Below, piece after piece: positions 2,156 through 24,028 of a stretch of 64,000 nucleotides of DNA. Source of the DNA: Glycomyces tritici (GTDB lineage: Bacteria; Actinomycetota; Actinomycetes; Mycobacteriales; Micromonosporaceae); assembly GCF_030403505.1 (NCBI RefSeq), contig NZ_JAUEMJ010000001.1:888596-952595 (forward strand), read 5' to 3'. A program made the position numbers and the translations under genes. Each line of letters starts with the position of its first letter. Within the stretch, counting starts at the first letter, position 1. The notes beneath the pieces were generated by a model, which did no database searches, was not told where the DNA came from, and worked only from the letters and a program-made list of their open reading frames with translations.

Positions 2156-2195
2156 GGACCGCCGCCGGCGCTGCGCAGAACGTCGGCGGCGGTCC
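2156..2195 (-). terminator. Hairpin after the GH43 gene
   Basis: GGACCGCCGCC (2156-2166) and GGCGGCGGTCC (2185-2195) form a perfect 11-bp stem about 20 nt past the galactanase stop. It probably insulates rpsE from island transcription. Confidence 0.65.
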
Positions 2196-2213
2196 TTGAG
2201 GTGAGGACGGAAC

Positions 2214-3671
2214 CTAGAGCCCGGTCACGTCCCACTGCTGGTTGGCGGCACCGGTGCAGGCGCTCTGGACGATGGCGGCGTTGTTGGCGGTCGAGGCGGC
2301 CTGGAGGCAGAGCCCGGAGTGCTGGGCGACGATGGCGTAGTTGCCGTTCGCGGAGGCGCGCAGGGAGAAGCGCTGGTTGCCGCCGGCCCAGCAGCCCCAC
2401 TGGCCGACGGGGGCGCCGTTGGCGGTGGCCTCGTCGAGCACGTCCCAGCACTTGCCGGTGGCGGTGTTGGAGACGGCGCCGACCTTGGAGCCGGGGTAGA
2501 CCGGGTCGAAGGTGAAGGCCTGGGGCGCGCCGTTCCAGCAGTCGTACTGGATGAGCCTGGTGCCGTCGGTGCCCGAGCCGCTGGGCACGTCGATGCAGCG
2601 GCCGGAGGCGGCGTTGACGAACTTGGTGCCGTAAGGGCTGCCGTCCTCGCTGCCGACGACGCCCTGGACCGTGCCCGCGGCGGCGTCGATGTTGAGGGTC
2701 GAGTACCAGGTGAGGGTCATGCTGGTGTTGCTGGGGAAGCTGATGGGGAGCCAGACGTACTCGCTGTCCATGGGCTTGCCGCCCCATTGCGGTCCCCAGC
2801 GGTCGCCCATGTAGAGGTAGCTGGTGCCGCTGGTGCCCTGCACGGTGGTGACGAAGGTCGGCTGGGAGCCGTAGGTGGTGCCGTTCCCGGCGTTGGTCCA
2901 GCCCGACCACGTGCCCTCGGGGAAGTTCGTGGTGGTGGCGTACTTGGTCTGGTTGGCGTTCCAGCCGGTGGCGCCGGAGGTCACCAGGAAGTAGACCCCG
3001 TTGCGCTGGAACACGGCCGGGGCCTCGCGGTGGAACCCGTCGAAGACGTGGACGAGCTCGTCGATGGCGAGGTAGTCGGGGGTGAGCCGGTAGACGTTGA
3101 GGTCGTAGTTCACGTCGGCGGCGGAGATGAGGTAGCCGGTGCCGTCGGTGTCGACGAAGAGGGTCATGTCGCGGGAGTCGTAGCCGGCGGGCCGGAAGGA
3201 GCCCTGGTAGTCGTAGTCGCCGTCGACGGTGTCCGAGACGGCCACGGCCACTTCGGCATCGCCGTAGTCGACGCCGTTCTCCTTGTGGGCCCAGAGGACG
3301 TACTTGTCGGTGGCGGCGTTGTAGATGACCTTGGGCCGCTCGATGTTGGCCGGGGAGAGGTCGGGGTCGGACTCGGCGCTGAGGATGTCGTTCTCGAACG
3401 TCCAGTTCACGAGGTCGGTCGAGGAGTACATGCTGACCTGGTCGAAGAGGTAGTCGTCGCGCTGCTCGCCGACGAGGTAGTAGGTGTTGCCGACCTTGAG
3501 CATGCCGCCGCCGTGGGCGTGCATGAGGTTGCCGGAGGTGTCGGTGATGGTCTGGCCGTTGTCGAACGCCACGGGCGCGCCCGCCGCGGGGGCCGGGGCG
3601 GCGAGGCCGATGGCCGTGGTCGCGAGGGCGGTCGCGGCGGCGAGGGCGCCCAGCCGCTTGCTTGCTGACAT
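2214..3671 (-). CDS. Secreted GH43 family exo-beta-1,3-galactanase-like enzyme with CBM13 domain
   Basis: 485-residue secreted glycoside hydrolase. A Sec signal (MSASKRLGALAAATALATTA, cleavage near APAAG-AP) precedes a five-bladed GH43 module starting at MHAHGGGMLKVGNTYYLVGE. The sites NIERPKV, HREAPAVF and GSQPTF match the Glu, Glu and Gln positions known for the galactan 1,3-beta-galactosidase subfamily (GH43_24), which lacks the usual Asp base. The last 125 or so residues are a ricin-type CBM13 with repeated C-D-V and QW-type motifs (ASGRCIDV, ATGKCWDV, ANQQWDV). Start: ATG at 3669-3671 with AAGGAG 6 nt upstream; a GTG seven codons earlier is less likely. The likely substrate is the beta-1,3-galactan of plant arabinogalactan proteins, inferred from family. 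It is monocistronic, with its own promoter and terminator. Confidence 0.85.
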   Translation of the reverse strand: MSASKRLGALAAATALATTAIGLAAPAPAAGAPVAFDNGQTITDTSGNLMHAHGGGMLKVGNTYYLVGEQRDDYLFDQVSMYSSTDLVNWTFENDILSAESDPDLSPANIERPKVIYNAATDKYVLWAHKENGVDYGDAEVAVAVSDTVDGDYDYQGSFRPAGYDSRDMTLFVDTDGTGYLISAADVNYDLNVYRLTPDYLAIDELVHVFDGFHREAPAVFQRNGVYFLVTSGATGWNANQTKYATTTNFPEGTWSGWTNAGNGTTYGSQPTFVTTVQGTSGTSYLYMGDRWGPQWGGKPMDSEYVWLPISFPSNTSMTLTWYSTLNIDAAAGTVQGVVGSEDGSPYGTKFVNAASGRCIDVPSGSGTDGTRLIQYDCWNGAPQAFTFDPVYPGSKVGAVSNTATGKCWDVLDEATANGAPVGQWGCWAGGNQRFSLRASANGNYAIVAQHSGLCLQAASTANNAAIVQSACTGAANQQWDVTGL

Positions 3672-3711
3672 CGTCGTCTCCTTCACGAGCACCCCCGGGG
3701 ATGGAGGTGCG

Positions 3712-3754
3712 ATCGAATCATTTCGATATTTCCACAGATTCGCCCCCTTGTAAA
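3712..3754 (-). promoter_or_regulatory. Candidate promoter and operator of the GH43 gene
   Basis: -35 TTTACA (3749-3754), 17-nt spacer, -10 AAATAT (3726-3731) on the minus strand. An inverted repeat ATCGAA-N4-TTCGAT (3712-3727) overlaps the -10 and expected start site and could be a repressor operator. Confidence 0.45.
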
Positions 3755-4195: not shown

Positions 4196-4696
4196 ATGCA
4201 TCGGCACCGGCCGCCGATAAAGCGGCTCGCCCGATTCTCAGTCGTCGGAGCCACCTGTTTCGCAATACAGGCGGGGATACTCCTCGCCCTCAGCGAGGCC
4301 GGCGTCCCGGACACGGCCGCCAATGCGGCCGGGTTCCTCGCCTCGGCGCAGGTCAACTTCCTGCTGAGTTCCGCCTTCACCTGGGCCGACCGCCGCCTCC
4401 CCGGACCGGGGGCGCGGCCCGTCGCGGCGCGCTGGGCCTCCTTCCAGGTCACCGTCGCGATCAGCCTGGCCTGCAACACCGGCGTGTTCGCGCTCGTCTC
4501 GCGCTTCGCGCCCTCGGTGGCGGCCGCGGCCGTGGCCGTGTGCGCCGGGGCCCTCCTCACCTACCTCGCCAGCGACCACCTCGTCTTCCGCCGCCGCAAG
4601 GCGGCTCCGACCGACCACATTGGAGACTCCCTTGACGATCATCGCCGACCAGCCGCAGCACTCCCCGGTCCGAACGGCCGCACCACCGCCGACTGA
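4196..4696 (+). CDS. GtrA-like membrane protein (putative polyprenyl-phosphate-sugar flippase)
   Basis: 166 residues with four hydrophobic segments: about FSVVGATCFAIQAGILLAL, ANAAGFLASAQVNFLLSSAF, FQVTVAISLACNTGVFALV and AAAAVAVCAGALLTYLAS. The order fits the GtrA family, including the basic N-terminal RLARFSVVG entry and the FTWAD loop after helix 2. GtrA proteins are thought to move lipid-linked sugars across the membrane for a GT-C transferase on the outside. The start is the ATG at 4196 with GGAGG 8 nt upstream; longer readings to 4037 lack a ribosome site. Its 3' end overlaps the next gene by 65 nt, implying translational coupling with the GT2::GT-C protein that probably makes and uses its substrate. 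Confidence 0.8.
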   Translation: MHRHRPPIKRLARFSVVGATCFAIQAGILLALSEAGVPDTAANAAGFLASAQVNFLLSSAFTWADRRLPGPGARPVAARWASFQVTVAISLACNTGVFALVSRFAPSVAAAAVAVCAGALLTYLASDHLVFRRRKAAPTDHIGDSLDDHRRPAAALPGPNGRTTAD

Positions 4697-6971
4697 CGGC
4701 ATCGCCGTCGTCATGCCCGCCTTCCGCGAGGAGGCGAACGTCGCCGGCACAGTGCAGGACTTCCTGTCCACTCTTGTCCGCGAAGGCATCCCGCACGCCG
4801 TCATCGTCGTCGACGACGGCAGCGACGACCGCACCGGAGCGATCATCGACCGGCTCGCCGCGGCCCACCCCGCCCGCGTCATCGCCGTCCACCACGAGCA
4901 CAACCAGGGCTACGGCGCCGCCGTGCGCACCGGACTCGAGACCGCCCTGCGCCGCACCGGGTTCCGCGAGATCCTGCTGACCGACGCCGACCGCCAGTTC
5001 CACGCCGAGGACCTGGTCCGCCTGCGCGAGTTCAAGAGGGAGGAGCGCGCCGACGCGGTCATCGGCTACCGCCGCCAGCGCGCCGACCCGTGGCGCCGCC
5101 GCCTCAACGCCAAGGTGTGGACCCTGCTGTGCAAGACGCTGCTGCAGGTCCCCGGCCGCGACGTCGACTGCGCCTACAAGCTCATCGACCGCTCGCTCCT
5201 CCAGGACCTGCGGCTCAGCGGCGAAGCCGCCGCGATCTCCCCCGAACTCCTGTGCCGCATCAGCGGCGACGGCGCCCGCATCGTCGAGCACCCCGTCGAG
5301 CACTACCCGCGCGAGCACGGCGAGCAGACCGGCGCGCGCCTCTCCGTCGTCGCCAAATCCCTCATCAGCCTCGCGGTCGTCTACGGCCACATGGTCCGCG
5401 ACGCCCGCCGCCTCGGCTGGGTCCGCCGCCTCGCCTCGCCCAAAGACCCCGGCGCGGCCCTCATCGCCCTCGCCGCCTGCGTCGCCGCGGTCGCCGCGTA
5501 CCTCTACTTCGCCGACCACGGGTACCTCCTGGCGTACAAGGACGCCAACTCGCACCTGCTCATCGCCCGGCGCGTCGTCGACAGCCCCACGGCCGGGCTC
5601 GCCCAGCTCGGCGGCGTCTGGCTGCCGCTCCCGCACCTGCTCTCCGCCCCACTCGCGACCTGGGAGGCCCTGTACCTCAACGGGTTCGCCGGGGCGTTCG
5701 TCTCCATGGCCTCCTACGTGGTCGCCGTGCGGTTCCTGTTCGCCCACGCCCGGTCGCTCTCGGGCCACTGGGCCGGCGGCCTCACCGCCGCAGGGCTCTT
5801 CGCGCTCAACCCGAACGTCCTGTACCTCCAGGCCACGGCCATGACCGAGCTGCTGCTGTTCGCATGCGCGATCGTCGCACTGCACTACCTGCACGAGTGG
5901 TGCACCGAAGGCCGCCTGCGGGACCTCTCCCTGGCCTCCGGCGCGGTCTTCGCCGCGACCCTCACCCGCTACGAGGGCTGGATCCTCTGCGCCGTCGCCG
6001 GCGCGATCGTCGCCTACGCCTCGCTGCGCCGCCACCGCCGCTACTCGCACACCGAAGGCTCGGTCGTCGTGTTCGGGTTCATCGCCGGCGCCGGGATCAT
6101 CGGCTGGCTGGCCTGGAACCTCGCGATCTTCGGCGACCCGCTGAACTGGAAGTCCGGCGAGTACGGCGACTCCTCGCTGTGGGTCTCCGAAGGCGAGGCC
6201 AACGTCGGCTCGCTGCCGACCGCCGCCGAGACGTACGGCCTCGCGTCCCTGCACAACCTCGGGATCGCGACGGTCGCCTTGGGCGTCGCCGGGCTCATCC
6301 TCTACGCGGTCCAGAAGCGGCTGCGGTCGCGGGCGCTCGTGCCCTACGCCATGCTCGTGTTCGCGCCGTTCTTCGTGTGGGCGCTCTACAGCGGCGAGCG
6401 GCCCCTCCACGTCAAGGAGGTCATGGGCGCGCTCTACAACGTGCGCTTCGGGCTCATCATGCTCATCCCCGCCGCCGTCTTCGCCGGGTTCCTCATCGGG
6501 ACGCTCGCCAAGCGCCTCCCCGGGCGGCGCCTCGCCGCCGGGACCCTCGCCGCGGCCGCCGTCGCGGGCGCCACGGTGGCCGTCGACGGCGCGGTCACCC
6601 TCGACGAGGCCGTCGAGTACCGCGCCAGCGGCTGGGAGGTCGACAACGCCGCCGTCTCCGCGTGGCTGCGCGAGCACCACGACGGCGGGACCACGCTCAT
6701 GATGTCCTTCGAGAACGAGTCGGTGACCTTCGAGTCCCAGGTCCCCACCGGGTCCCTCGTCTACGAAGGCTCCTACCGGATCTGGGAGGCGTCGCTCGCC
6801 GACCCGCACGCGGCGGGCGTCGAATGGATCTACATGCGCGCGACCCCGGGCAGCGAGGACGACGTCTGGGAGGCCCTGTGGGGCACCGAGGTCCTCGCCG
6901 ACCACTACGAACTGGTCTACGACGAAGGCGACCGCCTCGTGTACCGCGCCGAGGACGGAGGCGCCGCGTGA
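4632..6971 (+). CDS. GT2 polyprenyl-phosphate glycosyltransferase fused to a GT-C membrane glycosyltransferase
   Basis: 779 residues. Residues about 20-240 are a GT-A fold of the dolichyl-phosphate mannose synthase type: VVMPAFREEANV, VIVVDDGSDD, LTDADRQF (DXD) and a late YPREHGEQTGARLS segment. From about residue 275 comes a polytopic region of 8 or more helices with a first outer loop LAYKDANSHLLIARR, recalling the acidic loop-1 of GT-C transferases (ArnT/GT87-like), then a C-terminal soluble domain. One protein would thus charge a polyprenyl phosphate with sugar inside and transfer the sugar outside, with GtrA as flippase. Start: TTG at 4632 with GGAG 6 nt upstream; TTG at 4620 is the alternative. 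The acceptor is unknown. It overlaps the next gene by 4 nt (GTGA). Confidence 0.8.
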   Translation: MTIIADQPQHSPVRTAAPPPTDGIAVVMPAFREEANVAGTVQDFLSTLVREGIPHAVIVVDDGSDDRTGAIIDRLAAAHPARVIAVHHEHNQGYGAAVRTGLETALRRTGFREILLTDADRQFHAEDLVRLREFKREERADAVIGYRRQRADPWRRRLNAKVWTLLCKTLLQVPGRDVDCAYKLIDRSLLQDLRLSGEAAAISPELLCRISGDGARIVEHPVEHYPREHGEQTGARLSVVAKSLISLAVVYGHMVRDARRLGWVRRLASPKDPGAALIALAACVAAVAAYLYFADHGYLLAYKDANSHLLIARRVVDSPTAGLAQLGGVWLPLPHLLSAPLATWEALYLNGFAGAFVSMASYVVAVRFLFAHARSLSGHWAGGLTAAGLFALNPNVLYLQATAMTELLLFACAIVALHYLHEWCTEGRLRDLSLASGAVFAATLTRYEGWILCAVAGAIVAYASLRRHRRYSHTEGSVVVFGFIAGAGIIGWLAWNLAIFGDPLNWKSGEYGDSSLWVSEGEANVGSLPTAAETYGLASLHNLGIATVALGVAGLILYAVQKRLRSRALVPYAMLVFAPFFVWALYSGERPLHVKEVMGALYNVRFGLIMLIPAAVFAGFLIGTLAKRLPGRRLAAGTLAAAAVAGATVAVDGAVTLDEAVEYRASGWEVDNAAVSAWLREHHDGGTTLMMSFENESVTFESQVPTGSLVYEGSYRIWEASLADPHAAGVEWIYMRATPGSEDDVWEALWGTEVLADHYELVYDEGDRLVYRAEDGGAA

Positions 6972-8407
6972 ACCCCGACGCCCCGCCCTCCGGCCTCAGC
7001 GCCCAGCGGCTCCTCTCCCCCGGCCAGGCCGGCCTCGCGATCGGCGTCGTCGGCTTCATCGCCGCCGCGATCGCGCTCGACCTGCTCACCGGCTTCGGTC
7101 CCGGCCCGCTCCAGTGGGCCCAGGGCGGCATGTTCGCCCTCATCCTGCTCTACCTCGCCGTGATCGGGTTCAAGCTCGCGATGGTCCTCGGCTCCGGCCG
7201 GTCCACCGCGATGCGGTTCGAACCCGGTGCGCTGCAGACGTTCCCCGACTCCGAACTGCCCCGGTACACCGTCCTCGTGCCGCTGTACCGCGAAGCGGCC
7301 GTCGTCCCCGGGCTCGTCCGGCGCCTCTCGGCCCTGGACTACCCGGCCGACAAGCTCGAGATCCTGCTCCTGGTCGAAGCCGACGACGGCGAGACCCGGA
7401 CCGCCCTCGCCGCGCAGGGCCTCGGCCCGGCCTTCAGGACGGTGGTCGTGCCCGACACGCTGCCGAAGACGAAGCCCAAGGCGTGCAACGTGGGCCTGGC
7501 CCAGGCCACCGGCGAGCTCTGCGTCATCTTCGACGCCGAGGACCGGCCCGATCCCGATCAGCTGCGCAAGGCGGCGCTGGCGTTCCGGGTGCTGCCCGAC
7601 CGGGTGGTGTGCGTGCAGGCCGAACTCCAGTACTGGAACCCGTGGACGAACTGGCTGACGCGGTGCTTCTCGGCCGAGTACGCCACGAACTTCAGCCTGA
7701 CCCTGCACGGCATGGACCGGCACCGGCTGGCGATCCCGTTGGGCGGCACGTCGAACCACTTCCGGATCGACGCGCTGCGCGACCTCGGCGGCTGGGACCC
7801 GTTCAACGTCACCGAGGACGCCGACCTCGGCATCCGCATCGCCCGCCGCGGCTGGGACGTGCGCATGTTCGTCTCGGTCACCGAGGAGGAGGCGAACTCC
7901 CGCCTGGGCAACTGGATCCGCCAGCGCAGCCGCTGGATCAAGGGGTACATGCAGACGTGGCTGGTGCACTCGAGGGAGCCGGTGAAGCTGTGGCGGGAGC
8001 TGGGGACCCGCAAGACCCTTGCGATCCATCTGACGCTGGGGTTCTCGACGGTGACGACGCTGGTGAACCCGCTGATGTGGGCATTGACGCTGTCGTACTT
8101 CGTCTTCGGGCCGCAGTGGATGGAGCCGCTGTTCCCGCCGGTAGTCCTTTATGGAGGGATGTTCGCGATGATCGCGGGCAACGCCCTCATGTGCTACGCG
8201 CTGATGCTGGGCTGCCTCAAGCGGGGGCTGTACGCGGCGGTGCGGGCGATGCTCACGGTGCCCCTGTACTGGGGGTTGATGAGCGTGGCGGCGTACAAGG
8301 CGCTCGGGCAGCTGCTGCAGCCCAGCAAGCGCCATTTCTGGGAGCTGACCGAACACGGGTTGGACACATCGGACGAGGTGGATGCGGAGGTCGTACGTGC
8401 TCGGTGA
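6968..8407 (+). CDS. Membrane GT2 processive polysaccharide synthase (BcsA/CESA-like)
   Basis: 479 residues. Two N-terminal helices (GLAIGVVGFIAAAIALDLL and MFALILLYLAVIGFKL) precede a cytosolic GT2 domain with the D,D,D,QxxRW set: VEADDGE, FDAEDRPDPD, TEDADLGIRIARRGW and QRSRWIKGYMQTW. At least three C-terminal helices follow. This architecture is typical of processive beta-glycan synthases that polymerise and extrude a chain, but the PilZ domain of bacterial cellulose synthases is absent. GTG start in a GTGA overlap with the upstream stop. The donor sugar cannot be read from sequence. The 3' end overlaps the dehydrogenase gene by 11 nt, so four genes form one coupled operon. Confidence 0.85.
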   Translation: MNPDAPPSGLSAQRLLSPGQAGLAIGVVGFIAAAIALDLLTGFGPGPLQWAQGGMFALILLYLAVIGFKLAMVLGSGRSTAMRFEPGALQTFPDSELPRYTVLVPLYREAAVVPGLVRRLSALDYPADKLEILLLVEADDGETRTALAAQGLGPAFRTVVVPDTLPKTKPKACNVGLAQATGELCVIFDAEDRPDPDQLRKAALAFRVLPDRVVCVQAELQYWNPWTNWLTRCFSAEYATNFSLTLHGMDRHRLAIPLGGTSNHFRIDALRDLGGWDPFNVTEDADLGIRIARRGWDVRMFVSVTEEEANSRLGNWIRQRSRWIKGYMQTWLVHSREPVKLWRELGTRKTLAIHLTLGFSTVTTLVNPLMWALTLSYFVFGPQWMEPLFPPVVLYGGMFAMIAGNALMCYALMLGCLKRGLYAAVRAMLTVPLYWGLMSVAAYKALGQLLQPSKRHFWELTEHGLDTSDEVDAEVVRAR

Positions 8408-11400
8408 ACGCTTGGGCCGCTTGACGGTCGGAGCGCTGGTGGGAGCCGCGCTGCTGGTGGTGCCGGGGGGAGCGCAGGCCGCGCCCCCGGTGGAGTTCGA
8501 GAAGCTGCTCGTCGTCGGCGGGCTGGAGGAGCCGACCGCGTTCCGGTTCACGCCGGACGGGGACGTGCTGATCGCGGAGAAGAACGGGGCGATCCAGCTC
8601 CTGCACGACGGCGTGCTGCACGAGCACCCGCTGATCGAGCTGGCCACGGCCGGCTCTGACGAGCGGGGGCTGCTGGGGATGGAGCTGGACCCGGACTTCG
8701 CGGTCAACGGGTACGTGTACGTGGGGTACACGGCGGCGGACAACCTGGACCGGTTGAGCCGCTTCACGATGACCGGGCACGCGATCGACCCGGGCTCGGA
8801 GCTGGTGCTGCTGCAGTCGCAGCAGGACGCGAACGTGTTCCATCACTCCGGGAGCGTCAAGTTCGGTCCGGACGGGAAGCTGTACTGGACCCTCGGGATG
8901 AACACGAACAACCAGAACCCGCCGAACCTGGGCAACGTGCACGGCAAGATGCACCGGATCAACGCCGACGGCTCGATCCCGCCGGACAACCCGTTCGCGG
9001 ACACGCCGGGGGCGGAGCCTTCGGTGTGGGCGTACGGGCTGCGGAACTCGTTCCGATGGGACTTCGTCCCCAGTGGACCGAACGCGGGGAGCATGCTGGC
9101 CGGCGACGTGGGCGGCTCGGAGTGGGAGGAGCTCAACCTCATCGAGCGCGGCGCGAACTACGGCTGGCCGCACGTGGAGGGGGTGTGCGCGGACTGCCCG
9201 TACGCGCAGCCGGTGTACGCCTACCCGCACACGGCGCCGCCCGCGAGCGCGGGCTCGATCTCGGCGGTGGAGGTGTACGAGGGCGGGCTGCTCGGCGAGG
9301 AGTACGAGCAGGCGGTGTTCTTCGCGGACTACACGCTCGGGTTCGTGAAGTACCTGGTGATGGACGAGGCCTTCGAGTCCGTGGTGTCGGTGCACGACTT
9401 CGACACCGAGGCGGGGACGCCCGTGGAGTTGCAGACCGGGCCGGACGGGGCGCTGTACCAGTTGAACATCTACCCCGGAGAGCTGTACCGGATCGCGCCC
9501 TCGGGCGGGAACCGGACGCCGGTGGCGCAGGCGGCGGCGACCCCGGACAACGGCTACGCGCCCTTGGAGGTCGAGTTCTCCTCGGCGGGCTCCGCGGACG
9601 CGGACGGGGATGCGCTGACCTACGCGTGGGACTTCGGCGACGGGGCGGCCTCAGCTGAGGCGGACCCCGTGCACACCTACACCGAGGACGGGGTCTACCA
9701 GGCGGTGCTCACGGTCTCGGACGGCGAGAAGTCGGCGCAGTCCACCGTGGAGATACAGGTGGGGAACACCCGGCCCGAGGCGGTGGTGCTCACGCCCGAA
9801 GCGGGCCTGACGTACGACGGGGGCGACGTCGTGTCATTCTCGGGCTCGGCCCAGGACCCCGAGGACGGGGCGCTCGACGCGGCCTCGCTGTCGTGGACGG
9901 TGCAGTTCCACCATGCCGACCACGTGCACCCGTTCTACGGACCGGCCGAAGGCGCCTCGGGGCAGATCGAGATCCCGACCGCGCCGCACGGCGGGGACAA
10001 CACGTTCTACCGGATCGCGTTGACCGCCACGGATGCCGGGGGCCTCACCGACACCGCGTACGTCGACGTGCACCCGAACACCGTCGAAGTCGCGATCGCC
10101 ACCGACCCTGCGGGGCTGGAGTTCACGCTCGACGGGCGCCCGCTCGCATCGGCGACGAAGCGGATGGTCGTGGGCACCGAGTACGTGCTGGGCGCGGAGT
10201 CGCCGCAGTACGCGGACGGCTCCAGGTTCCGCTTCTCCGGCTGGTCGACGGGGGCCGAGCAGCAGCACGTGTTCACCGTGCCGGGCGAGGACACGGCGGT
10301 GACGGCCCAGTTCGAGGAGCTGCCGTACCCGCCGGAACCGTGGGAGTCCACCGATGTCGGGGAGCGGACCCAATTGGGGCTCAGCAGCTTCGACGACGGC
10401 GAATTCACGGTGACCGGCGCGGGCTGGGACATCTGGGGCGCGACCGACGAGTTCCACTTCGCGCACCGGCCGCTCACCGGGGACGGGTCGATCACGGCCA
10501 GGCTGACGTCGCAGGGGAACACGAACCCGTGGGCGAAGGCCGGAGTCATGATCAAGGAGTCCACCGATGAGGGCGCCACGTACGCGTCGATCGCGGTGAC
10601 CCCTGAGCACGGCGCGCACTTCCAGGCGGACTTCGGGACCGACGGCGGCGGCTTCGCGTACACCGAAGGCAGCGCCTGGCTGCGGCTGACGCGGGCCGGG
10701 GACGAGTTCACCGCGGAGCTTTCACCCGACGGCGTGGCGTGGACGGTGATCGGCTCGGCCGCGGTGCCCATGTCCGCGAGCGCGCAGGTCGGCCTGTTCG
10801 CGACCGCGCACGACAACACGCAGTTCTCCACGGCGGTCTTCGACTCGGTCGCGGTCGCGGCGGCGGACCCGGAGTTGACGTGTGAGGACGTGGGCGACCC
10901 GGCCATCGCGGGCTCCGCGTCGTTCGACCCCGAAGGCACGCTGACGATGACCGGCGCGGGCGACGACATCTGGGGCGACGCGGACCAGTTCCACTACTGC
11001 CACAAGGAGCTCGCGGGCGACGGCGAGATCATTGCCCGCGTGGCGTCGCTGGAGGACACGAACGACTGGGCCAAGGCCGGCGTGATGATCAAGACCGCGC
11101 CTGAGGAGGGCGCGGACTACGCGGCGGCCATGGCGACCGCCGCGGAAGGGGTCCATTTCCAGACCGGTTTCGATCGCGATGTGAACGGCCCGGTCACCGA
11201 CGCACCGGTGTGGGTCCGACTCGTACGGGAGGGAACGACCGTCACGGCCTACCACTCCGCGGACGGCCTGGCCTGGGAGCCGTTCGCCAGCGCCGCGCTG
11301 GAGGGCCCAGCGACGGTAGGCCTGTTCGTGACCTCCCATGACGGGAGCGAGGCGGCCACGGCCGTGTTCGACTCGATCGCCTTCCGGGACGACGCGCCGG

Positions 11401-11927: not shown

Positions 11928-11930
11928 ACC

Positions 11931-16990: not shown

Positions 16991-17920
16991 TCAGCCCGCT
17001 CCGTCGCGTTGGCGCGCCGGCCGGTGGCCGACCACGGCTCGGGCCCGGGACTCCAGGGCCTCGAGGGCTGCGGGGAAGCGCTGCTGCGCGACCGCGATGT
17101 GGACGAGGTCGGCGACGAGCAGCGCCGAGTGCCGGGACGCGAGCAGGTCGGCGCGGTGGCCGGTGCGGGTGGTGGCCGAGGTCAGGCAGATGTCCGCGAT
17201 GTCCGCGAGCGCCGAGTCGGCGTCGCCGGTGAGGGCCACGGTGAGCGCGCCGCGGCTGTCGGCCTCGGAGAGCATCTCGATGACCTCGGCGGTGGACCCG
17301 GAGAGGGAGACGGCGAACGCGACGTCCCCGGCGCCGAGGAGGGCGGCGCTGGCGAGGGCGTCGTGGACCTCGGTCCAGACCCAGGCGGCGACGCCGGTGC
17401 GGTAGAAGCCCATCTGGAGTTCGCGGGCGACGGTGGCACTCGTGCCGACGCCGTAGACGTCGACGCGGCGGGCGTCGCAGACGCGGGCGGCGACGCGCTC
17501 GACGGCGGCGAGGTCGAGGGTGTCGACGGTGTCGCGGAGCATCGCGGCGTCGATGGTGATGAGCTGCTTGAGGACCCGGTCGAGGGGGTCGGAGGGGGCG
17601 ATCTCCTGGCCGATGTTGACGTCCCAGCCGGTCTCGCGGCGGGCGGAGGCGCGTCCCGTTTCGGTTGCGATTGCAACCCTGAGGGCTGCGTAACCGTCAT
17701 ATCCGAGATGACGGCAGAATCGGGTGATGGTTCCTGGGGAGGTGCCCGAGATTTCAGCGAGGTCCATGATCGTGGCCCGAGCCGCGGCTTCGGGGTCGGC
17801 GAGCACTTGTTCGGCCACTTTGGACATGGCTTCGGACAGTTCACTGGCGCCGTGCCGGATCCGTTCGAGGACTCCGGCCGCGGCGGGTGCGATGGGCGCA
17901 TCTGGGCTGGTTCGCTCCAT
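16991..17920 (-). CDS. RpiR/MurR-type transcriptional regulator (HTH_6 + SIS)
   Basis: 309 residues. Residues about 10-85 are the N-terminal HTH_6 domain (EAMSKVAEQVLADPEAA, SGTSPGTITRFCRHLGYDGY). Residues about 125-260 form a SIS sugar-phosphate-binding domain (RVDVYGVGTSATVARELQ, GDVAFAVSLSGSTAEVIEML). Regulators of this type sense amino-sugar phosphates such as MurNAc-6P or GlcNAc-6P. The start is taken at the second ATG (17918-17920) because AAGGGG lies 6 nt before it and would abut the first ATG. It sits 58 nt upstream of the transporter operon on the same strand and divergent from the kinase gene. It probably controls both through the palindrome at 17965-17980. Confidence 0.88.
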   Translation of the reverse strand: MERTSPDAPIAPAAAGVLERIRHGASELSEAMSKVAEQVLADPEAAARATIMDLAEISGTSPGTITRFCRHLGYDGYAALRVAIATETGRASARRETGWDVNIGQEIAPSDPLDRVLKQLITIDAAMLRDTVDTLDLAAVERVAARVCDARRVDVYGVGTSATVARELQMGFYRTGVAAWVWTEVHDALASAALLGAGDVAFAVSLSGSTAEVIEMLSEADSRGALTVALTGDADSALADIADICLTSATTRTGHRADLLASRHSALLVADLVHIAVAQQRFPAALEALESRARAVVGHRPARQRDGAG

Positions 17921-18056: not shown

Positions 18057-19010
18057 ATGCACGCAAGACTCGCCGTCGGCCTCGACGCCGGCGGGACCAG
18101 CAGCCGCGCCGTCCTCATCGACGAGACCGGCGCACTGCTCGGCACCGGCGCCTCAGGACCGGCCAATCCGGTCGGCGGCGACCGGGAGATCGCGCTGTCC
18201 AACATGGCCCTCGCGTTCCAGCGGGCCCTCGGCGGCATCGACCCTACCGAGGTCGGCTCGGTCTGCATCGGCACGGCCGGAGCGCTCTCGCTCACCGAGG
18301 AAGTGCGCGAACTCTCCGCGGACCTCAAGCGGCGCTTCGCGACCCAGTGCGACGTCCGGGTCGTCTCCGACGCGGTGATCGCCTTCGCGGCCGGATCGTC
18401 CGCACCGGACGGCACCGTCGTGGTCTCGGGCACCGGCGCGGTGGCGTTCGCGATCCGCGACCGCACCCCCGCCCTGCGCTCCGACGGCTACGGCTGGCTC
18501 TTCGGCGACGCCGGCTCGGGCTTCTGGCTCGGCCGCGAGGCCGTGCGCGCCACACTGCGGCACATCGACGGCAACGGCCCCGGCGGGCGGCTCGTCGAGG
18601 CCATCATCGCCGCGATCTCACCGGACAAGCGGCGCTCGGGCGCGCTCGTCGCCAAGTGCATGGCGGACCCGCCGGTGCGGCTCTCGCGCTTCTCCGCGCT
18701 CGTATGCGAGGCGGCCGACGGCGGCGACCCGGTCGCCGAGTCGATCGTCGCCAGGGCGGTCGGGCACCTCGCCGAATCCGTCTCGTACGTGGTCGACCGC
18801 GAACTGCCGATCGTCATGGCCGGAAGCCTCCTGACGCGCCCGACCCCGATCGCCGCACTGCTCCAGGAGCGGTTCCGGCTCGTGTACCCGAAGGCCGGCA
18901 TCAGCAAGGCCACCGACCCCGCGATCGGCGCGGCCTGGATGGCCGCCAGCGCCTTCGTCACCGACCCCGAAGCCCGCGTCCGCCTCCACCGCCAACTCGC
19001 CTGGCGCTAG
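18057..19010 (+). CDS. N-acetylglucosamine/N-acetylmuramate kinase-like protein (BadF/BcrA ATPase family)
   Basis: 317 residues of the ASKHA fold. It has a phosphate-1 loop LAVGLDAGGTSSRAVLID (about residues 5-22), a central VVSGTGAVAFAI and DGYGWLFGDAGSGFWLG segment, and an adenosine-site segment PIVMAGSLLTRPTP. This is the N-acetylglucosamine kinase/MurK-like branch of the BadF family, which phosphorylates GlcNAc and in some members MurNAc at O6. An AAGGAG lies 13 nt before the ATG, a long spacing. Divergent from an RpiR regulator and convergent with murQ. Kinase plus MurQ plus a non-PTS importer is what a bacterium without a MurNAc PTS would need. Substrate preference is not readable from sequence. 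Confidence 0.8.
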   Translation: MHARLAVGLDAGGTSSRAVLIDETGALLGTGASGPANPVGGDREIALSNMALAFQRALGGIDPTEVGSVCIGTAGALSLTEEVRELSADLKRRFATQCDVRVVSDAVIAFAAGSSAPDGTVVVSGTGAVAFAIRDRTPALRSDGYGWLFGDAGSGFWLGREAVRATLRHIDGNGPGGRLVEAIIAAISPDKRRSGALVAKCMADPPVRLSRFSALVCEAADGGDPVAESIVARAVGHLAESVSYVVDRELPIVMAGSLLTRPTPIAALLQERFRLVYPKAGISKATDPAIGAAWMAASAFVTDPEARVRLHRQLAWR

Positions 19011-19217: not shown

Positions 19218-20147
19218 TCAGGCCGCCTTGAGCGCCCCCGAGAGGCGGCCTTCGGCCGCCTCCAGCCGCGCCTTCGCCTCGGCCGCTTCGACACCGAGCT
19301 CGAGCATGACCACCGCGGTCTTCACATGCTCGCCGGAGGCGGCCAGCGCCGCCTCTGCGGCCTCGGCGTCGGCGCCGGTGATCTCGCGGATCATCCGCAC
19401 CGCCCGCGCCGCGAGCTTCGAGTTGGCGACCCGCATGTCCACCATGTAGTTCCGGTAGACCTTCCCCAAGCGCACCATCGTGATCGTCGAGATCATGTTG
19501 AGCACGAACTTCTGCGCCGTGCCCGATTTCAGACGCGTCGAACCGGCCACGACCTCGGGCCCGACCTCGACCTCGATGCGGTGCTCGGCCGCAGCCGACA
19601 GGAGCGTGCCGGCGTTGCACGACAGGCCCACGGTCAGCGCCCCGCGCCGCCGGGCCTCCTCGACCGCCGCGACCACGAACGGGGTGCGGCCGCTCGCGGC
19701 CAGGCCGACCACCGCGTCGGCGGGGCCGATGTCCTCGGCGGCCATGGCCGCCGCCCCGGCCGCCGCGTCGTCCTCGGTGCCTTCCACCGCGCCGCCTTCG
19801 GCGGCCCTGCCGCCCGCGAGGATCGCCTTCACCAGTTCGGGGTCGGTCGAGAACGTGGGCGGGCACTCGGCGGCGTCCATGACCGCCATGCGCCCGGCCG
19901 TCCCGGCCCCCACGTACCGCAGTCGCCCGCCTTTGGCGAGCCGCTCGGCCACGGCGTCGATCGCGGCGGCCACGTCCGGGAGCACCGCGGCGACGGCGGC
20001 CGCGACGCTCGCGTCGGCCTCGTTCATGGTGCGCGCCAAGTCGAGGGTCGCGAGCGCCTCGATCCCGGCGTAGCGGGGGTCGGCCTGCTCGGTTGCCAAG
20101 GTGGCCAGCTGCGTGCGCGCCCGCAGGCGCTCGGTCGTCTCACTCAC
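19218..20147 (-). CDS. murQ: N-acetylmuramic acid 6-phosphate etherase
   Basis: 309 residues, cytoplasmic SIS-domain lyase that cleaves the lactyl ether of MurNAc-6P to give GlcNAc-6P and D-lactate. It has the family signature GAGTAGRMAVMDAAECPPTF (about residues 76-95), a second SIS signature GLAASGRTPFV with SCNAGT downstream, and the C-terminal GSTRLKSGTAQKFVLNMIST segment; the length is normal (about 300). Start: GTG at 20145-20147 matches the usual N-terminus (SETTERLRARTQ). No ribosome site precedes it, and a TAGGCT lies 7 nt upstream, so the mRNA may be leaderless. Convergent with the kinase gene and divergent from the second RpiR regulator. Confidence 0.95.
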   Translation of the reverse strand: MSETTERLRARTQLATLATEQADPRYAGIEALATLDLARTMNEADASVAAAVAAVLPDVAAAIDAVAERLAKGGRLRYVGAGTAGRMAVMDAAECPPTFSTDPELVKAILAGGRAAEGGAVEGTEDDAAAGAAAMAAEDIGPADAVVGLAASGRTPFVVAAVEEARRRGALTVGLSCNAGTLLSAAAEHRIEVEVGPEVVAGSTRLKSGTAQKFVLNMISTITMVRLGKVYRNYMVDMRVANSKLAARAVRMIREITGADAEAAEAALAASGEHVKTAVVMLELGVEAAEAKARLEAAEGRLSGALKAA

Positions 20148-20181: not shown

Positions 20182-20249
20182 TCCCACCGACTGGACATGA
20201 AGAATCACGCCGTACCGTGGGGGCGCCCGCGCAGGTGTACGGTGACGTC

Positions 20250-21131
20250 ATGCCTGCCAGCCGCACCGACACGCCCAACCTCCTGGTGCTCATCAAGTCC
20301 GTCCTGCCTTCGCTGTCGAAGGCGGAGACCAAGGTCGCCCAAGAGATCATCCGCGAGCCCGAGGCCGCCTCGACCCGGACGATCACCGAGCTCGCCCGCG
20401 CCGCGGGCACCTCCGAGGCCACCGTGGTGCGGTTCTGCCGCTCCCTCGGCCTCGCCGGGCACCGAGAGCTTCGCATGCGCGCCGCGCAGGCCGTCATCGG
20501 CACCGGCGAGGGCCCGGACCGCGAGATCGCGGGCGGCGACATCCCCACGGGCGCCGACATGTCCCGCATCATCGCCACCGTCTCCTACGCGGACGTCGGC
20601 GCGATCACCGACACCGCGAACGCCCTCGACACGGCCGCCTGCGAAGCCGCCGTCGCCGCCCTCGCGGCCGCGGGCCGCATCGACGTCTTCGGCGTCGAGG
20701 CCTCGGGGATCGTCGCCTCGGACCTCGTCAAGAAGCTCCACCGCATCGGCTGCACCGCGTTCTCCTGGCCGGACGTGCACGCCGCGCTCGTGGCGACCGC
20801 GCTCGCGAGCCCGAAGGACGTGGCGGTCGCGATCTCCCACTCCGGGGCGACCACCGAGACCGTCGAGTTCCTGGAGTCCGCGCGCGACCGCGAGGCGACC
20901 ACGATCGCCATCACCAACCACGCGCGCTCGCCGCTCGCGAAGGCGGCGGACCTCGTCTTGACCACCGCCGCAAGGGAAACGACGTTCCGCTCCGGTGCCA
21001 CGGTCAGCCGCATCGCGCAGCTCATGGTCGTCGACTGCCTCTTCGTCGGCGTGGCGGCCAAGCAGCGCAAGCGAACCGCCAAAGCCCTCGCCGCCACGGC
21101 GGCGGCGGTCTCAGGCCGCCAGCGCGCCTGA
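20250..21131 (+). CDS. RpiR/MurR-type transcriptional regulator (second copy)
   Basis: 293 residues. An HTH_6 domain (PSLSKAETKVAQEIIREPEA, GTSEATVVRFCRSLGLAGHREL) occupies about residues 13-85. A SIS domain (IDVFGVEASGIVASDLVKKL, DVAVAISHSGATTETVEFL) covers about 130-250. It is clearly related to, but distinct from, the regulator at 16991. It is divergent from murQ, the arrangement of murR-murQ in E. coli, so MurNAc-6P is the likely effector by analogy. The ATG at 20250 has no ribosome site, and TACGGT sits 6 nt upstream, suggesting a leaderless transcript. A longer reading from 20217 is unlikely. Confidence 0.88.
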   Translation: MPASRTDTPNLLVLIKSVLPSLSKAETKVAQEIIREPEAASTRTITELARAAGTSEATVVRFCRSLGLAGHRELRMRAAQAVIGTGEGPDREIAGGDIPTGADMSRIIATVSYADVGAITDTANALDTAACEAAVAALAAAGRIDVFGVEASGIVASDLVKKLHRIGCTAFSWPDVHAALVATALASPKDVAVAISHSGATTETVEFLESARDREATTIAITNHARSPLAKAADLVLTTAARETTFRSGATVSRIAQLMVVDCLFVGVAAKQRKRTAKALAATAAAVSGRQRA

Positions 21132-21140
21132 GCACGACGA

Positions 21141-21167
21141 AGGCGGGGACCGCAAGGGCCCCCGCCT
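21141..21167. terminator. Bidirectional hairpin between convergent regulator and GH25 genes
   Basis: AGGCGGGG (21141-21148) pairs with CCCCGCCT (21160-21167), extended inward by partial pairing. It lies between two convergent stops (21131 and 21182). Confidence 0.65.
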
Positions 21168-21181
21168 CTCCGTGACCCGCG

Positions 21182-21979
21182 TCAGGTGTTGTTGGCGAGG
21201 GCCAGGAGGCGGTCCCTCGATCCGTTGAAGTGGTCGCGGTCGACGTTGCCGGCGATGCCGGAGACCGATCCGGTGGCGGTGTACTGCCAGAACGTCCAGG
21301 TCGTGCTGCTCCAGCCCGCCGGGAGGGCCGGGCTCGCCGCGCCCCAGTGCGCGATCCACAAGGGGCTCTTGGAGGCCATGCCGGTCCACGAGCCGGTGCA
21401 GGAGTTCCACCAGGAGGCGGTCGTGTAGATGACCACGTCGCGGCCGGTGCGCGTCTTGTACCGGTTGTAGAAGTCGGTGATCCACGTGCGCATCTGGGTG
21501 GTGCTCAGGCCGTAGCAGGCCGCGCCCGAGGGCGGGGCCTCCAGGTCGACCGCGCCGGGGAGGGTCAGGTTGTCGGCCGACCAGCCGCCGCCGTTGCTGG
21601 CGAAGTAGTCCGCCTGCGCGGTGCCGCTGGAGCTGCCGGGCCGGGCGAAGTGGTACGCCCCGCGGATGACGCCCGCGTTGTAGGCCGCCACGTAGTTGGT
21701 GTTGAACCGGGGGTCCTTGTAGGTGGTGCCCTCGGTGGCCTTGATGTAGGCCCACTGGACGCCGGAGTTCCTGACGGAGGTCCAGTTGATCGAGCCCTGG
21801 TAGTTGGAGACGTCGATGCCGGCGACGCGGGTCTGCGCCTGGGCCGGGCTCGCGAGGGTCAGCCCGGCGACGGTGAGGACGGTGGCCGCGAGGAGCACGA
21901 CGGCCGCCCTCAGGCTCCGGCGGGGGTTTCGGAGGCCTGCTCGGCCGGTGGGGACATTGAGGGTTGAGAGACGCAGCAC
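21182..21979 (-). CDS. Secreted GH25 lysozyme (N-acetylmuramidase)
   Basis: 265 residues. A Tat/Sec-like signal of about 48 residues (RNPRRSLRAAVVLLAATVL to SPAQAQ) precedes a full GH25 barrel. Catalytic landmarks are GIDVSNYQG (first Asp), KATEGTTYKDPRF, the AVDLEAP pair (Asp and Glu) and a terminal DRDHFNG, as in Chalaropsis-type lysozymes. It cleaves MurNAc-GlcNAc bonds of peptidoglycan outside the cell. No separate wall-binding domain is seen. GTG start with GGGAG 5 nt upstream. A good promoter lies at 22046-22075. It sits between amino-sugar recycling genes and the exported NagZ-type enzyme, which fits muropeptide supply. Confidence 0.93.
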   Translation of the reverse strand: MLRLSTLNVPTGRAGLRNPRRSLRAAVVLLAATVLTVAGLTLASPAQAQTRVAGIDVSNYQGSINWTSVRNSGVQWAYIKATEGTTYKDPRFNTNYVAAYNAGVIRGAYHFARPGSSSGTAQADYFASNGGGWSADNLTLPGAVDLEAPPSGAACYGLSTTQMRTWITDFYNRYKTRTGRDVVIYTTASWWNSCTGSWTGMASKSPLWIAHWGAASPALPAGWSSTTWTFWQYTATGSVSGIAGNVDRDHFNGSRDRLLALANNT

Positions 21980-22045
21980 TATTACTCCCTGCTTGTGAGG
22001 AGATCAGTGGAATGGGAGGAGTGCACGGTTTTGCACCCGGAACCC

Positions 22046-22075
22046 AGTATGAAGAGAAGTTCCACAGGGAGTCAA
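22046..22075 (-). promoter_or_regulatory. Promoter of the GH25 gene
   Basis: -35 TTGACT (22070-22075), 18-nt spacer, -10 CATACT (22046-22051). Transcription would start about 60 nt before the GTG. Confidence 0.65.
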
Positions 22076-22116
22076 GCGTGTGAAAATAACTTTCTGCTAC
22101 GCGCAGGTGAACGGCC

Positions 22117-23913
22117 CTACGGGTAGCGCAGGCCGTGGCCGAACGCGAAGGCGACCGCGCCGTCCGCTCCGGGCACGTCCACCGGGAGCGTCCCGCTCGG
22201 GTCGACCGCGCCGGTGATCACCTTCGCCAGGGACGCCAGGGAGGCGGCCGTGTACGAGTAGGTCGCCAGGCTCGCGTTGACCGAGCCGAGGTGCGCGGCG
22301 TCGTAGGGCGTGCCGACCGCTGCGTGGACGACCGGGACCCCGGCGTTCAGCAGTTCGGCGACCAGGTCGGCCTGGGCCCCGCCGGCCTGCACGCCGTACG
22401 TCGTGACGACCACGAGGTCGCGGCCCGCGGCGGCGGCGACGGCGGCCTTGATCTGGTCCGCGCTCGGCTCCTCGCCGGTGACGAGCGCTTCCGCCTGCAG
22501 CCCTTCGGCACCCAGGGATTCGGCCAGGCGGGCGGTGGTGTTCTCGCCCCAGCCGGTGACCAGTACGCTCCCGGCCGCGAACGGCAGGGTGCCGTCGTTG
22601 GCGAGCAGCGTGATCGAGCGGTCGGCGATGTCGGCGGCGACCTGCCGGTGCTCCTCCGAGCCGACCACGTCCGTGCCGGCGGGGTCGGTCGAGGGCTCCG
22701 CGATGATGCCGCGGGCGGCCTTGAGGGCGAGCAGGCGCCGCACGGAGGCGTCGATGCGCTCCTCGGTCAGCTCCCCCGATTCGACGGCCGCCAGCACCGC
22801 CTCGAAGGCCAGCTGGAAGTCCGGCGGCATGAGCAGCATGTCGACCCCGGCCTGCAGCGCCATCACCGGCACCCGCTCGTCCCCGTACTCGGCGCGGACC
22901 CCCTCCATCTCGAGGGAGTCGGTGACGACCACGCCGTCGAAGCCGAGCCGCTCGCGCAGCAGGCCGGTGAGGATCGGCGCCGAGAGCGTGGCGGGCTTCA
23001 ACGAGTCGTCGAGCGCCGGAAACTGGAGGTGGCCTGACATGACCATGTCGGTCCCGGCGTCGATCGCGGCCGTGAACGGCGGGGCGTCGATCCGCTCCCA
23101 CTCCTCGGCGGTGTGCGTGATGACGGGCAGGCCCACGTGGCTGTCCGTGCCCGTGTCGCCATGCCCGGGGAAGTGCTTGGCGGCGACCGCCACGCCCCCG
23201 GCCTGGTAGCCGCCCGTCTGCGCGGCCGTGAACTCGGCGACGAGCGCCGGGTCCGAGCTGAAGGACCGCACCCCGATGACCGGGTTCCGCGGGTCCACGT
23301 TCACGTCCGAGTCCGGCGCGAAGTTGAGGTTGAGGCCCATCGCGCGCAGCTCCGCGCCGGCGGCCTCGGCCGCCCGGCGCGCGGCCTCGGTGTCCCGGGT
23401 CGCCCCCAGCGGCATCGCCCCGGGGAACTGCGTGGCCGGCTCGCCGATCCGCACGACCGAGCCGTACTCCTGGTCGGTGGCGATGAACAGCGGGATCTCG
23501 GAGGCCTCCTGGAGGCCGTTCGAGAGCGCCGCGACCTGGTCAGGATCGGACAGTCCGTTGGACCAGTCGAAGTAGATGATCCCGCCGGGCTTGAAGGCGG
23601 CGATGAACGCGGCGCCGTTGGCCGCGCCGAGCCGCTCCATGTTCGAGGCGACCGCATCGGCCTGGCCGGTGTCAGCCGACTCGCCGTGCACGTAGACCAT
23701 GAACAGCTGGCCGACCTTGTCCTCCAGGGACATCTCGGCGAGCTGCGTCTCGACCCGCTCCGGGGTCGGGGCCGCCGGCTCGTCGCCCTGCGGCTGCTCC
23801 TCGCCGCGCCGCGAAGCGGCCTCGATGAGCACTGCACCGCCGCCGACGACCGCGAAGGCCCCGGCGACGCTCGAGACGAGCACGGTCTTGCGGGAGAGCT
23901 TCGGCGAACGCAC
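22117..23913 (-). CDS. Exported GH3 beta-N-acetylhexosaminidase (NagZ type)
   Basis: 598 residues. An uncleaved or late-cleaved N-terminal hydrophobic segment (TVLVSSVAGAFAVVGGGAVL) and a Pro/Glu linker put the enzyme outside the membrane. The GH3 barrel has IPLFIATDQEYGSVVRIG, the NagZ signature KHFPGHGDT with the following DSHVGLP (Asp-His acid/base loop) and the nucleophile region VVVTDSLEM. A second, alpha/beta-sandwich domain follows (about residues 430-598). It removes terminal GlcNAc from muropeptides or wall glycans. Two-domain exported NagZ is the Gram-positive form, unlike the one-domain cytosolic E. coli enzyme. GTG start chosen; only a weak GGGCGG precedes it. It is the last island gene before rplR. 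Confidence 0.9.
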   Translation of the reverse strand: MRSPKLSRKTVLVSSVAGAFAVVGGGAVLIEAASRRGEEQPQGDEPAAPTPERVETQLAEMSLEDKVGQLFMVYVHGESADTGQADAVASNMERLGAANGAAFIAAFKPGGIIYFDWSNGLSDPDQVAALSNGLQEASEIPLFIATDQEYGSVVRIGEPATQFPGAMPLGATRDTEAARRAAEAAGAELRAMGLNLNFAPDSDVNVDPRNPVIGVRSFSSDPALVAEFTAAQTGGYQAGGVAVAAKHFPGHGDTGTDSHVGLPVITHTAEEWERIDAPPFTAAIDAGTDMVMSGHLQFPALDDSLKPATLSAPILTGLLRERLGFDGVVVTDSLEMEGVRAEYGDERVPVMALQAGVDMLLMPPDFQLAFEAVLAAVESGELTEERIDASVRRLLALKAARGIIAEPSTDPAGTDVVGSEEHRQVAADIADRSITLLANDGTLPFAAGSVLVTGWGENTTARLAESLGAEGLQAEALVTGEEPSADQIKAAVAAAAGRDLVVVTTYGVQAGGAQADLVAELLNAGVPVVHAAVGTPYDAAHLGSVNASLATYSYTAASLASLAKVITGAVDPSGTLPVDVPGADGAVAFAFGHGLRYP

Positions 23914-23993
23914 CCGCCCATCCTGACCCAGACCCGCGACCGCCGCCGACGCGACCCGCGGCGGTCCCGTCGCAAATCACACCGAATACGACG

Positions 23994-24028
23994 AAAGCCG
24001 GGAAGGAGCAGATGCTCCTTCCCGGCTT
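23994..24028 (-). terminator. Intrinsic terminator directly after rplR
   Basis: GCCGGGAAGGAGC (23997-24009) and GCTCCTTCCCGGC (24014-24026) give a perfect 13-bp stem, flanked by AAA/TT that adds two pairs, with a 4-nt loop. TTTCGT follows on the minus strand. It starts about 20 nt past the rplR stop, so the spc transcript probably ends here rather than reading through the island. Confidence 0.8.

Follow-up and report, generated by a model that had tools for sequence, protein, structure and literature searches.

A divided spc ribosomal protein operon in the genus Glycomyces, with a candidate promoter of the S10 type and a conserved RNA element at the new joint

Division of the spc operon throughout Glycomyces

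The gene order of the spc ribosomal protein (r-protein) operon is among the most conserved in bacteria, and the usual explanation is co-transcription combined with feedback control. Here we report that this operon is divided between rplR and rpsE in a 64,000-nucleotide (nt) stretch of the Glycomyces tritici genome (contig NZ_JAUEMJ010000001.1, positions 888,596 to 952,595; hereafter the window), a high-GC sequence (68.7% guanine plus cytosine), and that the same division is present in every Glycomyces genome examined. Given the gene orders, the conservation, the covariation, and the promoter and hairpin sequences observed in these genomes, we consider it probable that the spc operon of Glycomyces was converted into two transcription units under separate control, flanking a site of insertion, through a series of events that would have started with an RNA element at the joint and continued with a second promoter and the entry of wall-recycling genes.

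In the window, rplR (uL18; 24047-24442, minus strand; Pfam PF00861) is the last gene of the proximal half and rpsE (uS5; 1296-1958, minus strand; PF00333/PF03719) the first gene of the distal half, where rpmD (uL30; 1103-1285, minus strand; PF00327) and then rplO (uL15; 627-1100, minus strand; PF00828) come after it. With rplR and rpsE on the same strand and in normal operon order, the canonical arrangement that the initial annotation of this stretch described on both sides of the break was borne out. The codon-usage gene caller placed 14 genes between rplR and rpsE, not the 13 accessory genes counted initially.

Both window junctions (22553-25891 and 120-3297) were found again at ~96% nucleotide identity in G001, the nearest genome to the window among those examined. 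Moreover, rplR and rpsE were non-adjacent in 22/22 Glycomyces genomes. In 12 of these, the two genes lie on one contig with 10.9-64.8 kb between them, and both halves keep their order and strand in all 12; in the other ten, the genes are on separate contigs, so that the order and strand of the halves are not judgeable there. The ten two-contig genomes might be taken to favor an assembly or binning artifact of one genome, but the recurrence of both junctions in G001, the 12 genomes in which the genes stand 11-65 kb apart on one contig, and the retention of a promoter and an RNA element at the new 5′ end of rpsE leave that explanation with next to no probability, and it was rejected. The separation of the two genes is genuine, is common to the whole genus, and is old; it is neither a chimera, as had initially been considered pending a comparison with relatives, nor a private island.

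Outside Glycomyces, rplR and rpsE were found next to each other. Among the best 80 loci for the window rplR in the matches listed, the top 21 (79-99% identical) comprised 20 Glycomyces records and one Actinomycetes metagenome-assembled genome, and the remaining 59 (60-76% identical), all non-Glycomyces, showed rplR-rpsE gaps of -31 to 81 nt. One record titled Glycomyces fuscus TRM 49117 (L115) has a contiguous operon; its rplR is only 66% identical to that of the window and its rplR-rpsE gap equals that of Nocardiopsis records, and the genus label of this record looks wrong. A sample of 61 genomes was also drawn from the GTDB family, of which three were Glycomyces. Both genes were recovered, always on one contig, from 55 of the 58 non-Glycomyces genomes (the other three gave one of the genes or neither), and the domain-to-domain gap was 119-317 nt in 52/55. 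Wider gaps were found in G047 (997 nt), G034 (1100 nt), and G035 (1393 nt), and gene calling in these ~0.9-1.3 kb rplR-rpsE spacers called no gene. Thus, no other actinobacterial genome examined shows the break-up, and gaps there do not exceed 1.4 kb. The description of the split as a rare event stands for these genomes; its rarity across all bacteria rests on general knowledge, because the survey covered Actinobacteria only.

Candidate transcription signals and an RNA element at the joint

In the window, a terminator-like 16-bp hairpin that ends in TTT (23994-24029, minus strand; dG -32 in a ViennaRNA scan) begins 20 nt past the first base of the rplR stop codon. Hairpins of -29.1 to -41.7 kcal/mol, starting at +14 to +30 after the rplR stop, were present in 23/23 Glycomyces sequences (the window plus 22 genomes), and most of them end in or precede a few T. 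When seven sister genomes (G034, G035, G026, G067, G115, G029, and G047, presumably Glycomycetaceae) were examined, hairpins of -22.6 to -41.5 lay within 35 nt of the rplR stop in 5/7; in 15 outgroups, the best hairpin within the same distance reached -6.5 to -19.1.

The distal half begins with a promoter-like sequence upstream of rpsE (2093-2122, minus strand), which consists of TTCGCC (2122-2117), an 18-nt spacer, and CATAAT (2098-2093), followed by CGAGAGGTTGCG. The promoter of the S10 operon, upstream of rpsJ (32499-32528, minus strand), reads TTGCTG, 18 nt, and CATAAT, followed by ATTCAGGTTGCG. CATAAT with GTTG[CT]G downstream was found before rpsE in 23/23 Glycomyces. The S10 promoter had the same core as that of rpsE (CATAAT; CATACT in L086) in 20 of 21 loci (L068-L088, which overlap largely with the 22 genomes), the 21st (L087) being a 9-kb contig that starts too late to show the S10 promoter. 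When the 22 Glycomyces genomes were searched with the strict pattern GCATAATNNNNRGGTTGCG, 39 matches of two sequence types only were obtained, 19 at rpsE and 20 of S10 type; of the S10-type matches, 19 were located ~8 kb upstream of rplR and the remaining one is on an unplaced G007 contig. The reversed control pattern gave 0 matches in the 22 genomes.

Because the promoter core (CATAAT or CATACT) was present at S10 in 8/8 relatives (G034, G035, G047, G026, G029, G067, G023, and G025), the S10 promoter appears to be the older of the two. Similar S10-type promoters precede rpsE in G034 and G035, and the rpsE promoter would therefore have arisen at the same stage as the wide gap, on the branch shared by Glycomyces, G034, and G035.

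Taken together, these sequences give good support to the view that the two spc halves appear to be separate transcription units, in which transcription would end after rplR and start anew before rpsE, under separate regulation. Several observations weigh against this view. The hairpins are T-poor, and a consensus terminator scan (at least 5 T in 8) did not list that of the window. G034 offers no hairpin better than -15.4 within 35 nt of rplR, its hairpin of -23.0 beginning at +42, and none of this kind follows rplR in G067. Likewise, the -35 hexamer of rpsE (TTCGCC) is weak, and the rpsE pattern found no S10-type promoter before rpsE in G026, G029, G047, G067, and G115, so that the hairpin in these sisters may be an attenuator or a processing signal. 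It could also be proposed that the recycling genes inserted between the halves were co-opted into the ribosomal transcript, with rplR read-through driving nagZ, the GH25 gene, and the transporter, such that the split operon would still be one long transcript and wall recycling would be coupled to growth rate. In keeping with this proposal, nagZ and most core genes run in the direction of rplR, nagZ starts 129-169 nt after rplR in 15/22 genomes, and no promoter-like site was listed at window positions 23700-24200. We nonetheless regard it as improbable in view of the strong hairpin after rplR in 23/23 sequences, the opposite orientation of one RpiR gene and the kinase gene, and the conserved promoter that rpsE has of its own.

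Just 5′ of the rpsE ribosome-binding region, the window contains an RNA element (1979-2011, minus strand) of the form GCGAGUC-stem-GGCGUUGAGC, which scored 64.7 bits with the covariance model R1; the window sequence belongs to the training set of this model, which was built from 26 of 30 element sequences. Between promoter and rpsE start, the element GCGAGUC-stem-GGCGUUnAGC was found in 30/30 sequences (the window, 22 Glycomyces, and the seven sister genomes), with the G007 copy coming from a family scan, as a contig end interrupts rpsE in this genome. The bases on either side of the stem vary little or not at all, and the stem itself covaries. In the alignment, 97.6% of cells were paired, compared with 89.7% after shuffling, and 17 cells were double-changed, compared with 4.9 in shuffles; neither value was reached in 500 shuffles. 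When the structure was slid along the alignment, pairing dropped to 22-47%, and RNAalifold lengthened the stem through an invariant U.G pair. Two points temper this evidence: 4 of 8 pairs showed a double change, against 1.8 in shuffles, a value that 6/500 shuffles reached, and the alignment (A3) was fitted to the structure. In G067, the element lies in the 72-nt rplR-rpsE spacer of a contiguous operon, which suggests that it is older than the split.

The element has a narrow distribution. In a family scan, 25/150 genomes gave a match; in 23 of these, all of them Glycomyces or sister genomes, the element precedes rpsE, and the other two (G070 and G131) had no rpsE in ~3 kb around the match. A class scan matched 3/394 genomes, namely G001 and two (G332 and G210) without rpsE in the surrounding 2.2-3.0 kb; these large scans used stricter filters, with which weak matches may be lost. 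A whole-genome pattern search of eight genomes returned 34 matches, one before rpsE in each genome; the other 26, judged by eye only, were without a matching stem. When window positions 1-33000 were compared with Rfam up to E 1, two miRNA-family matches far below the gathering score were returned, and none at rpsE. By its sequence pattern, the element is a good candidate for an r-protein feedback leader. That it acts instead only as a processing signal, a terminator-like hairpin, or a translation enhancer is a possibility to which we give roughly one part in three: the element is short (33 nt in the window), restricted to one clade, and positioned right before the ribosome-binding region, and its likeness to 23S rRNA (see below) is borderline. 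Against this stands the combination of invariant bases with a variable, covarying stem that they flank (including the U.G wobble of the RNAalifold fold), a pattern that suggests a protein-binding site.

The putative leader may mimic a hairpin in domain II of 23S rRNA. In the rRNA operon of G005 (L306, confirmed by Rfam), the 23S gene contains GCGAGUCUGAAUAGGGCGUUGAGU, homologous to E. coli 23S nt 634-657. According to the Rfam consensus, this segment forms a hairpin that shares its G-C, U.G, and C-G pairs with the leader, and the UUGA after it stays unpaired, like the corresponding leader bases; an extended stem and another outer 2-bp helix set the leader apart. In rRNA operons, nt 635-656 of 23S were the top match of R1, with weak values in both Glycomyces (E 0.12) and E. 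coli (E 0.47). The likeness is suggestive, and three findings count against it or its proposed ligand: 54/1000 shuffled rRNA sets reached the sequence score, the cmsearch E of 0.12 being borderline; the G005 leader reads UUUUA where its own 23S has UUGA; and the text available of one paper groups uL15 with the central-protuberance proteins. Some sister genera have leaders that read GUUAUA or GUUUA; six small contigs of G029 and G047, examined for a comparison of leader and 23S changes, contained no rRNA. The helix name H35a was considered for nt 635-656 and dropped, as a paper, in its available text, puts H35 near nt 749 with H35a packed on H35. The distal half encodes two 50S proteins, uL30 and uL15. 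Our best guess for the ligand is uL15, on the assumption that it contacts domain II; literature searches did not confirm this, and contacts of uL15 with 23S nt 635-656 were not found in them.

The inserted genes and their origin

What had been described as a 22-kb island consists of genes that truly lie between rplR and rpsE, but it is not a single insertion. It has two layers, a ~10-kb amino-sugar and peptidoglycan-recycling cluster common to the genus and a variable part. Reading from rplR in the window, the core comprises a NagZ-like GH3 beta-N-acetylhexosaminidase (22117-23913, minus; PF00933/PF01915; NCBIfam PRK05337 at 177.6 bits, below the cut-off of 207), a GH25 lysozyme-like protein (21182-21898, minus; PF01183), RpiR/MurR-family regulator a (20235-21131, plus; PF01418 and PF01380), the N-acetylmuramic acid 6-phosphate etherase MurQ (19218-20147, minus; TIGR00274 equivalog, above cut-off), a BadF/NagK-like amino-sugar kinase (18057-19010, plus; PF01869; NCBIfam NagK below cut-off), regulator b of the RpiR/MurR family (16991-17806, minus; PF01418 and PF01380), an NgcE-type N-acetylglucosamine/diacetylchitobiose-binding protein (15526-16932, minus; TIGR03851 equivalog, above cut-off), and the ATP-binding cassette (ABC) permeases A (14572-15495, minus; PF00528) and B (13652-14470, minus; PF00528). 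The last of these, whose family occurred in 14/14 sets compared, ends the genus-wide core.

Gene calls on the window, 12 single-contig species, and the two G001 halves revealed a common layout: rplR, NagZ-like GH3, GH25, sometimes an amidase, RpiR (opposite strand), MurQ, kinase (opposite strand), RpiR, solute-binding protein, two permeases, the variable tail, and rpsE. In G006, a short unclustered open reading frame (ORF) was called at the kinase position. The nagZ start lies within 1 kb of rplR in 21/22 Glycomyces; G022 has no nagZ near rplR but contains GH25, amidase, RpiR, and murQ genes. Regulator a and MurQ were found downstream of rplR in 21/21 loci (L068-L088), among which GH25 was not found in L077 and nagZ was not found in L088. 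The joint presence of MurQ and the NgcE-type protein, both assigned above cut-off, with the transporter and RpiR regulators points to scavenging or recycling of peptidoglycan amino sugars as the most likely role of the cluster, and we see no need for a functional link with ribosomes. Such a recycling cluster for N-acetylmuramic acid and other amino sugars, murQ-murR-nagZ-namZ, is known from Bacillus. The Glycomyces cluster resembles it in bringing together MurQ, RpiR/MurR regulators, a NagZ-like GH3, a kinase, and an importer, and the G035 copy carries NamZ as well. It differs in having an NgcE-type ABC importer instead of a phosphotransferase system, in adding GH25 and, in many species, an amidase, and in its location inside a ribosomal operon.

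The variable part of the window contains an ORF without an assigned function (12110-13492, minus; no Pfam match), which is a singleton of the window among the sets compared and whose longer form gave a below-cut-off ATPase_2 match (E 1.1e-4). It is followed by a GSDH/PKD/DUF1349 protein (8439-11927, plus; Pfam; a family of 6 among the sets compared), a GT2 glycosyltransferase (6968-8407, plus; Pfam), and a membrane glycosyltransferase with GT2 and PMT-like parts (4632-6971, plus; Pfam), which form a three-gene cassette also seen in G001, G002, G005, G014, and G021. The variable tail also holds GH43 genes, in the window one with ricin-type lectin domains (2214-3692, minus; Pfam). The Pfam matches of the 14 intervening window genes included no integrase, relaxase, or other mobility gene, and the GC content of the inserted DNA is 69.7%, compared with 66.0-67.2% in two ribosomal flank stretches. 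With no mobility genes, a GC content that does not look foreign, and a core common to the genus, a recent horizontal island was rejected. In G006, the only relative whose extra genes were Pfam-scanned for mobility functions, a ~45-kb block between GH43 and rpsE (L064-L067), and thus inside the split operon, contains genes for a serine recombinase, TraG/TrwB-like ATPases of the type IV secretion system type, and a Replic_Relax relaxase; judged from these genes, this predicted element is an integrative conjugative element (ICE). A MazE-like antitoxin gene with a small partner lacking a Pfam match was seen in L069, L071, L074, L079, L082, L085, and L086. Depending on the species, this toxin-antitoxin-like pair, which appears to move among the inserted genes, lies either between rplR and nagZ or after GH25.

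The origin of the recycling cluster was approached through the relatives. In a tree of eight concatenated r-proteins, G034 was sister to Glycomyces and G035 came next (support 100 each), and G026, G067, G115, G029, and G047 formed a second group (support 72). MurQ had one match each in G001 and G015, located in the spc gap. In G035, G026, G067, G029, and G047, a MurQ 62-68% identical was located away from that gap, and G034 gave a weak partial match only. At a site ~192 kb away from spc, G035 holds the whole cluster in the same order and on the same strands (NagZ, NamZ, amidase, RpiR, MurQ, kinase, RpiR, binding protein, two permeases). The adjoining wrbA block is also conserved in G005, G015, and G034, where the cluster is missing from it. 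The simplest reading of this distribution is that the cluster would have moved as a block into the spc gap on the Glycomyces stem and been lost in G034; a reverse move may instead have taken place in G035.

Some of the data fit this history less well. The presumed donor site has one conserved flank (wrbA), the ABC-transporter flank not being conserved; Glycomyces monophyly has 75% support in the r-protein tree; and the second group joins other Micromonosporaceae (72%), so that the sister genera and Glycomyces do not come out as one clade in this tree and a single origin of the RNA element would have to be assumed. Alternatively, insertion of the cluster into the gap could date back to the common ancestor of Glycomyces, G034, and G035; G034 would later have lost the cluster, in G035 it would have been relocated to the wrbA site, and the 1-kb gaps would be scars. 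The gaps of G034 (~1.0 kb) and G035 (~1.3 kb), at the same place and without called genes, would suit such a history. Opposed to it, the gaps held no convincing remnants of the cluster, the best matches of Glycomyces proteins (E 0.002-0.004) being to assorted genes, and it costs one event more than a single move with loss in G034; we consider it unlikely, at about one chance in four. One such weak match in the G047 gap (E 0.003) was to MurQ. In the G035 gap, two ORFs were noted, one without a Pfam match and the other with a below-cut-off LuxR-type helix-turn-helix match (E 0.061); the latter fragment (L149, 8034-8246, plus) is perhaps a decayed earlier insertion.

Two further observations concern neighboring genes. 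In G001 (L005-L006, G001:C15 1-40000), homologs of infA, rpsM, rpsK, and rpsD were not found in ~25 kb downstream of map, unlike in G067, which keeps infA, rpsM, and rpsK beside spc; the spc-alpha joint thus also looks disconnected in Glycomyces. In addition, a gene of 413 amino acids without a Pfam match (window 47392-48633, minus) lies between genes assigned by position as rplJ/rplL and rpoB.

A proposed sequence of events and its relation to known systems

We propose that, in an ancestor of Glycomyces and the sister genera, the operon was still contiguous and the structured RNA element arose before rpsE, within the short rplR-rpsE spacer. On the line to Glycomyces, G034, and G035, an S10-type promoter would have arisen upstream of the element, a terminator-like hairpin would have formed after rplR, and the spacer would have grown to ~1 kb. 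With hairpin, promoter, and spacer in place, DNA inserted there would no longer interrupt a shared transcript. The resident amino-sugar and muropeptide-recycling cluster may then have moved into the spacer on the Glycomyces stem, and species would later have added further genes, in one case an ICE. Coordination of the halves would persist through their common promoter type, which is essentially unique to the two sites. In addition, the distal half may be under feedback control by an r-protein for which the leader mimics the domain II hairpin. A more specific version, which we put forward tentatively and at well under even odds, holds that the break was wired in advance: a lineage-specific leader that mimics 23S nt 635-656 and binds uL15 would have stood at the joint first, followed by the second copy of the S10 promoter and then by the docking of wall-recycling genes and the ICE, so that coordination would have been kept after the break because the joint was already prepared.

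Disconnection of r-protein gene clusters by inserted genes has been described before; in the text available of Brandis 2021 (PMC8046335), 77/115 rearrangement events trace to insertions. As in those cases, a cluster is disconnected by insertion, with adjacency in relatives and new genes in the lineage. The insertions covered there concern Gammaproteobacteria and Bacilli and fall at operon edges or between operons, whereas in Glycomyces, a member of Actinomycetota, spc itself is broken between rplR and rpsE, and the break is accompanied by a promoter copy and a structured leader. In E. coli, the S8-spc operator is located at rplE and mimics 16S h21 (PMC4176348, PMC10931766, as far as their available text goes). 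It controls translation by rRNA mimicry, as the Glycomyces element may, and both are spc mRNA hairpins with an asymmetric internal loop; the Glycomyces element differs in its position at rpsE, its lack of the A642 arrangement, and its resemblance to 23S domain II. An S8-operator likeness was rejected by inspection, since the h21-like core with the (G597-C643)-U641 triple and A642, as given in the available text of PMC4176348, was not found. Further parallels are the candidate leaders of Eckert & Weinberg 2020 (PMC7247131), covarying RNAs 5′ of r-protein genes in narrow lineages, some of which imitate rRNA. In Table 1 of that paper, none of the 20 entries lists rpsE or rplO as the regulated gene, and the actinobacterial entries are L17 and L31. 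A 2024 review (PMC10931766) describes, in its available text, the regulation of spc in B. subtilis or other species as unknown, and our literature searches of open-licence PMC papers found no report of an rplR-rpsE split or of such a leader.

The relatives of Glycomyces thus provide living intermediates, from a contiguous operon with the RNA element, through a ~1-kb spacer with promoter and hairpin, to the full insertion. The question of what holds r-protein operons together thereby becomes testable, and the genus supplies one specific RNA that can be put forward as a candidate new r-protein leader. On these data, what such operons need to retain would be their promoter type and RNA feedback rather than physical contiguity.

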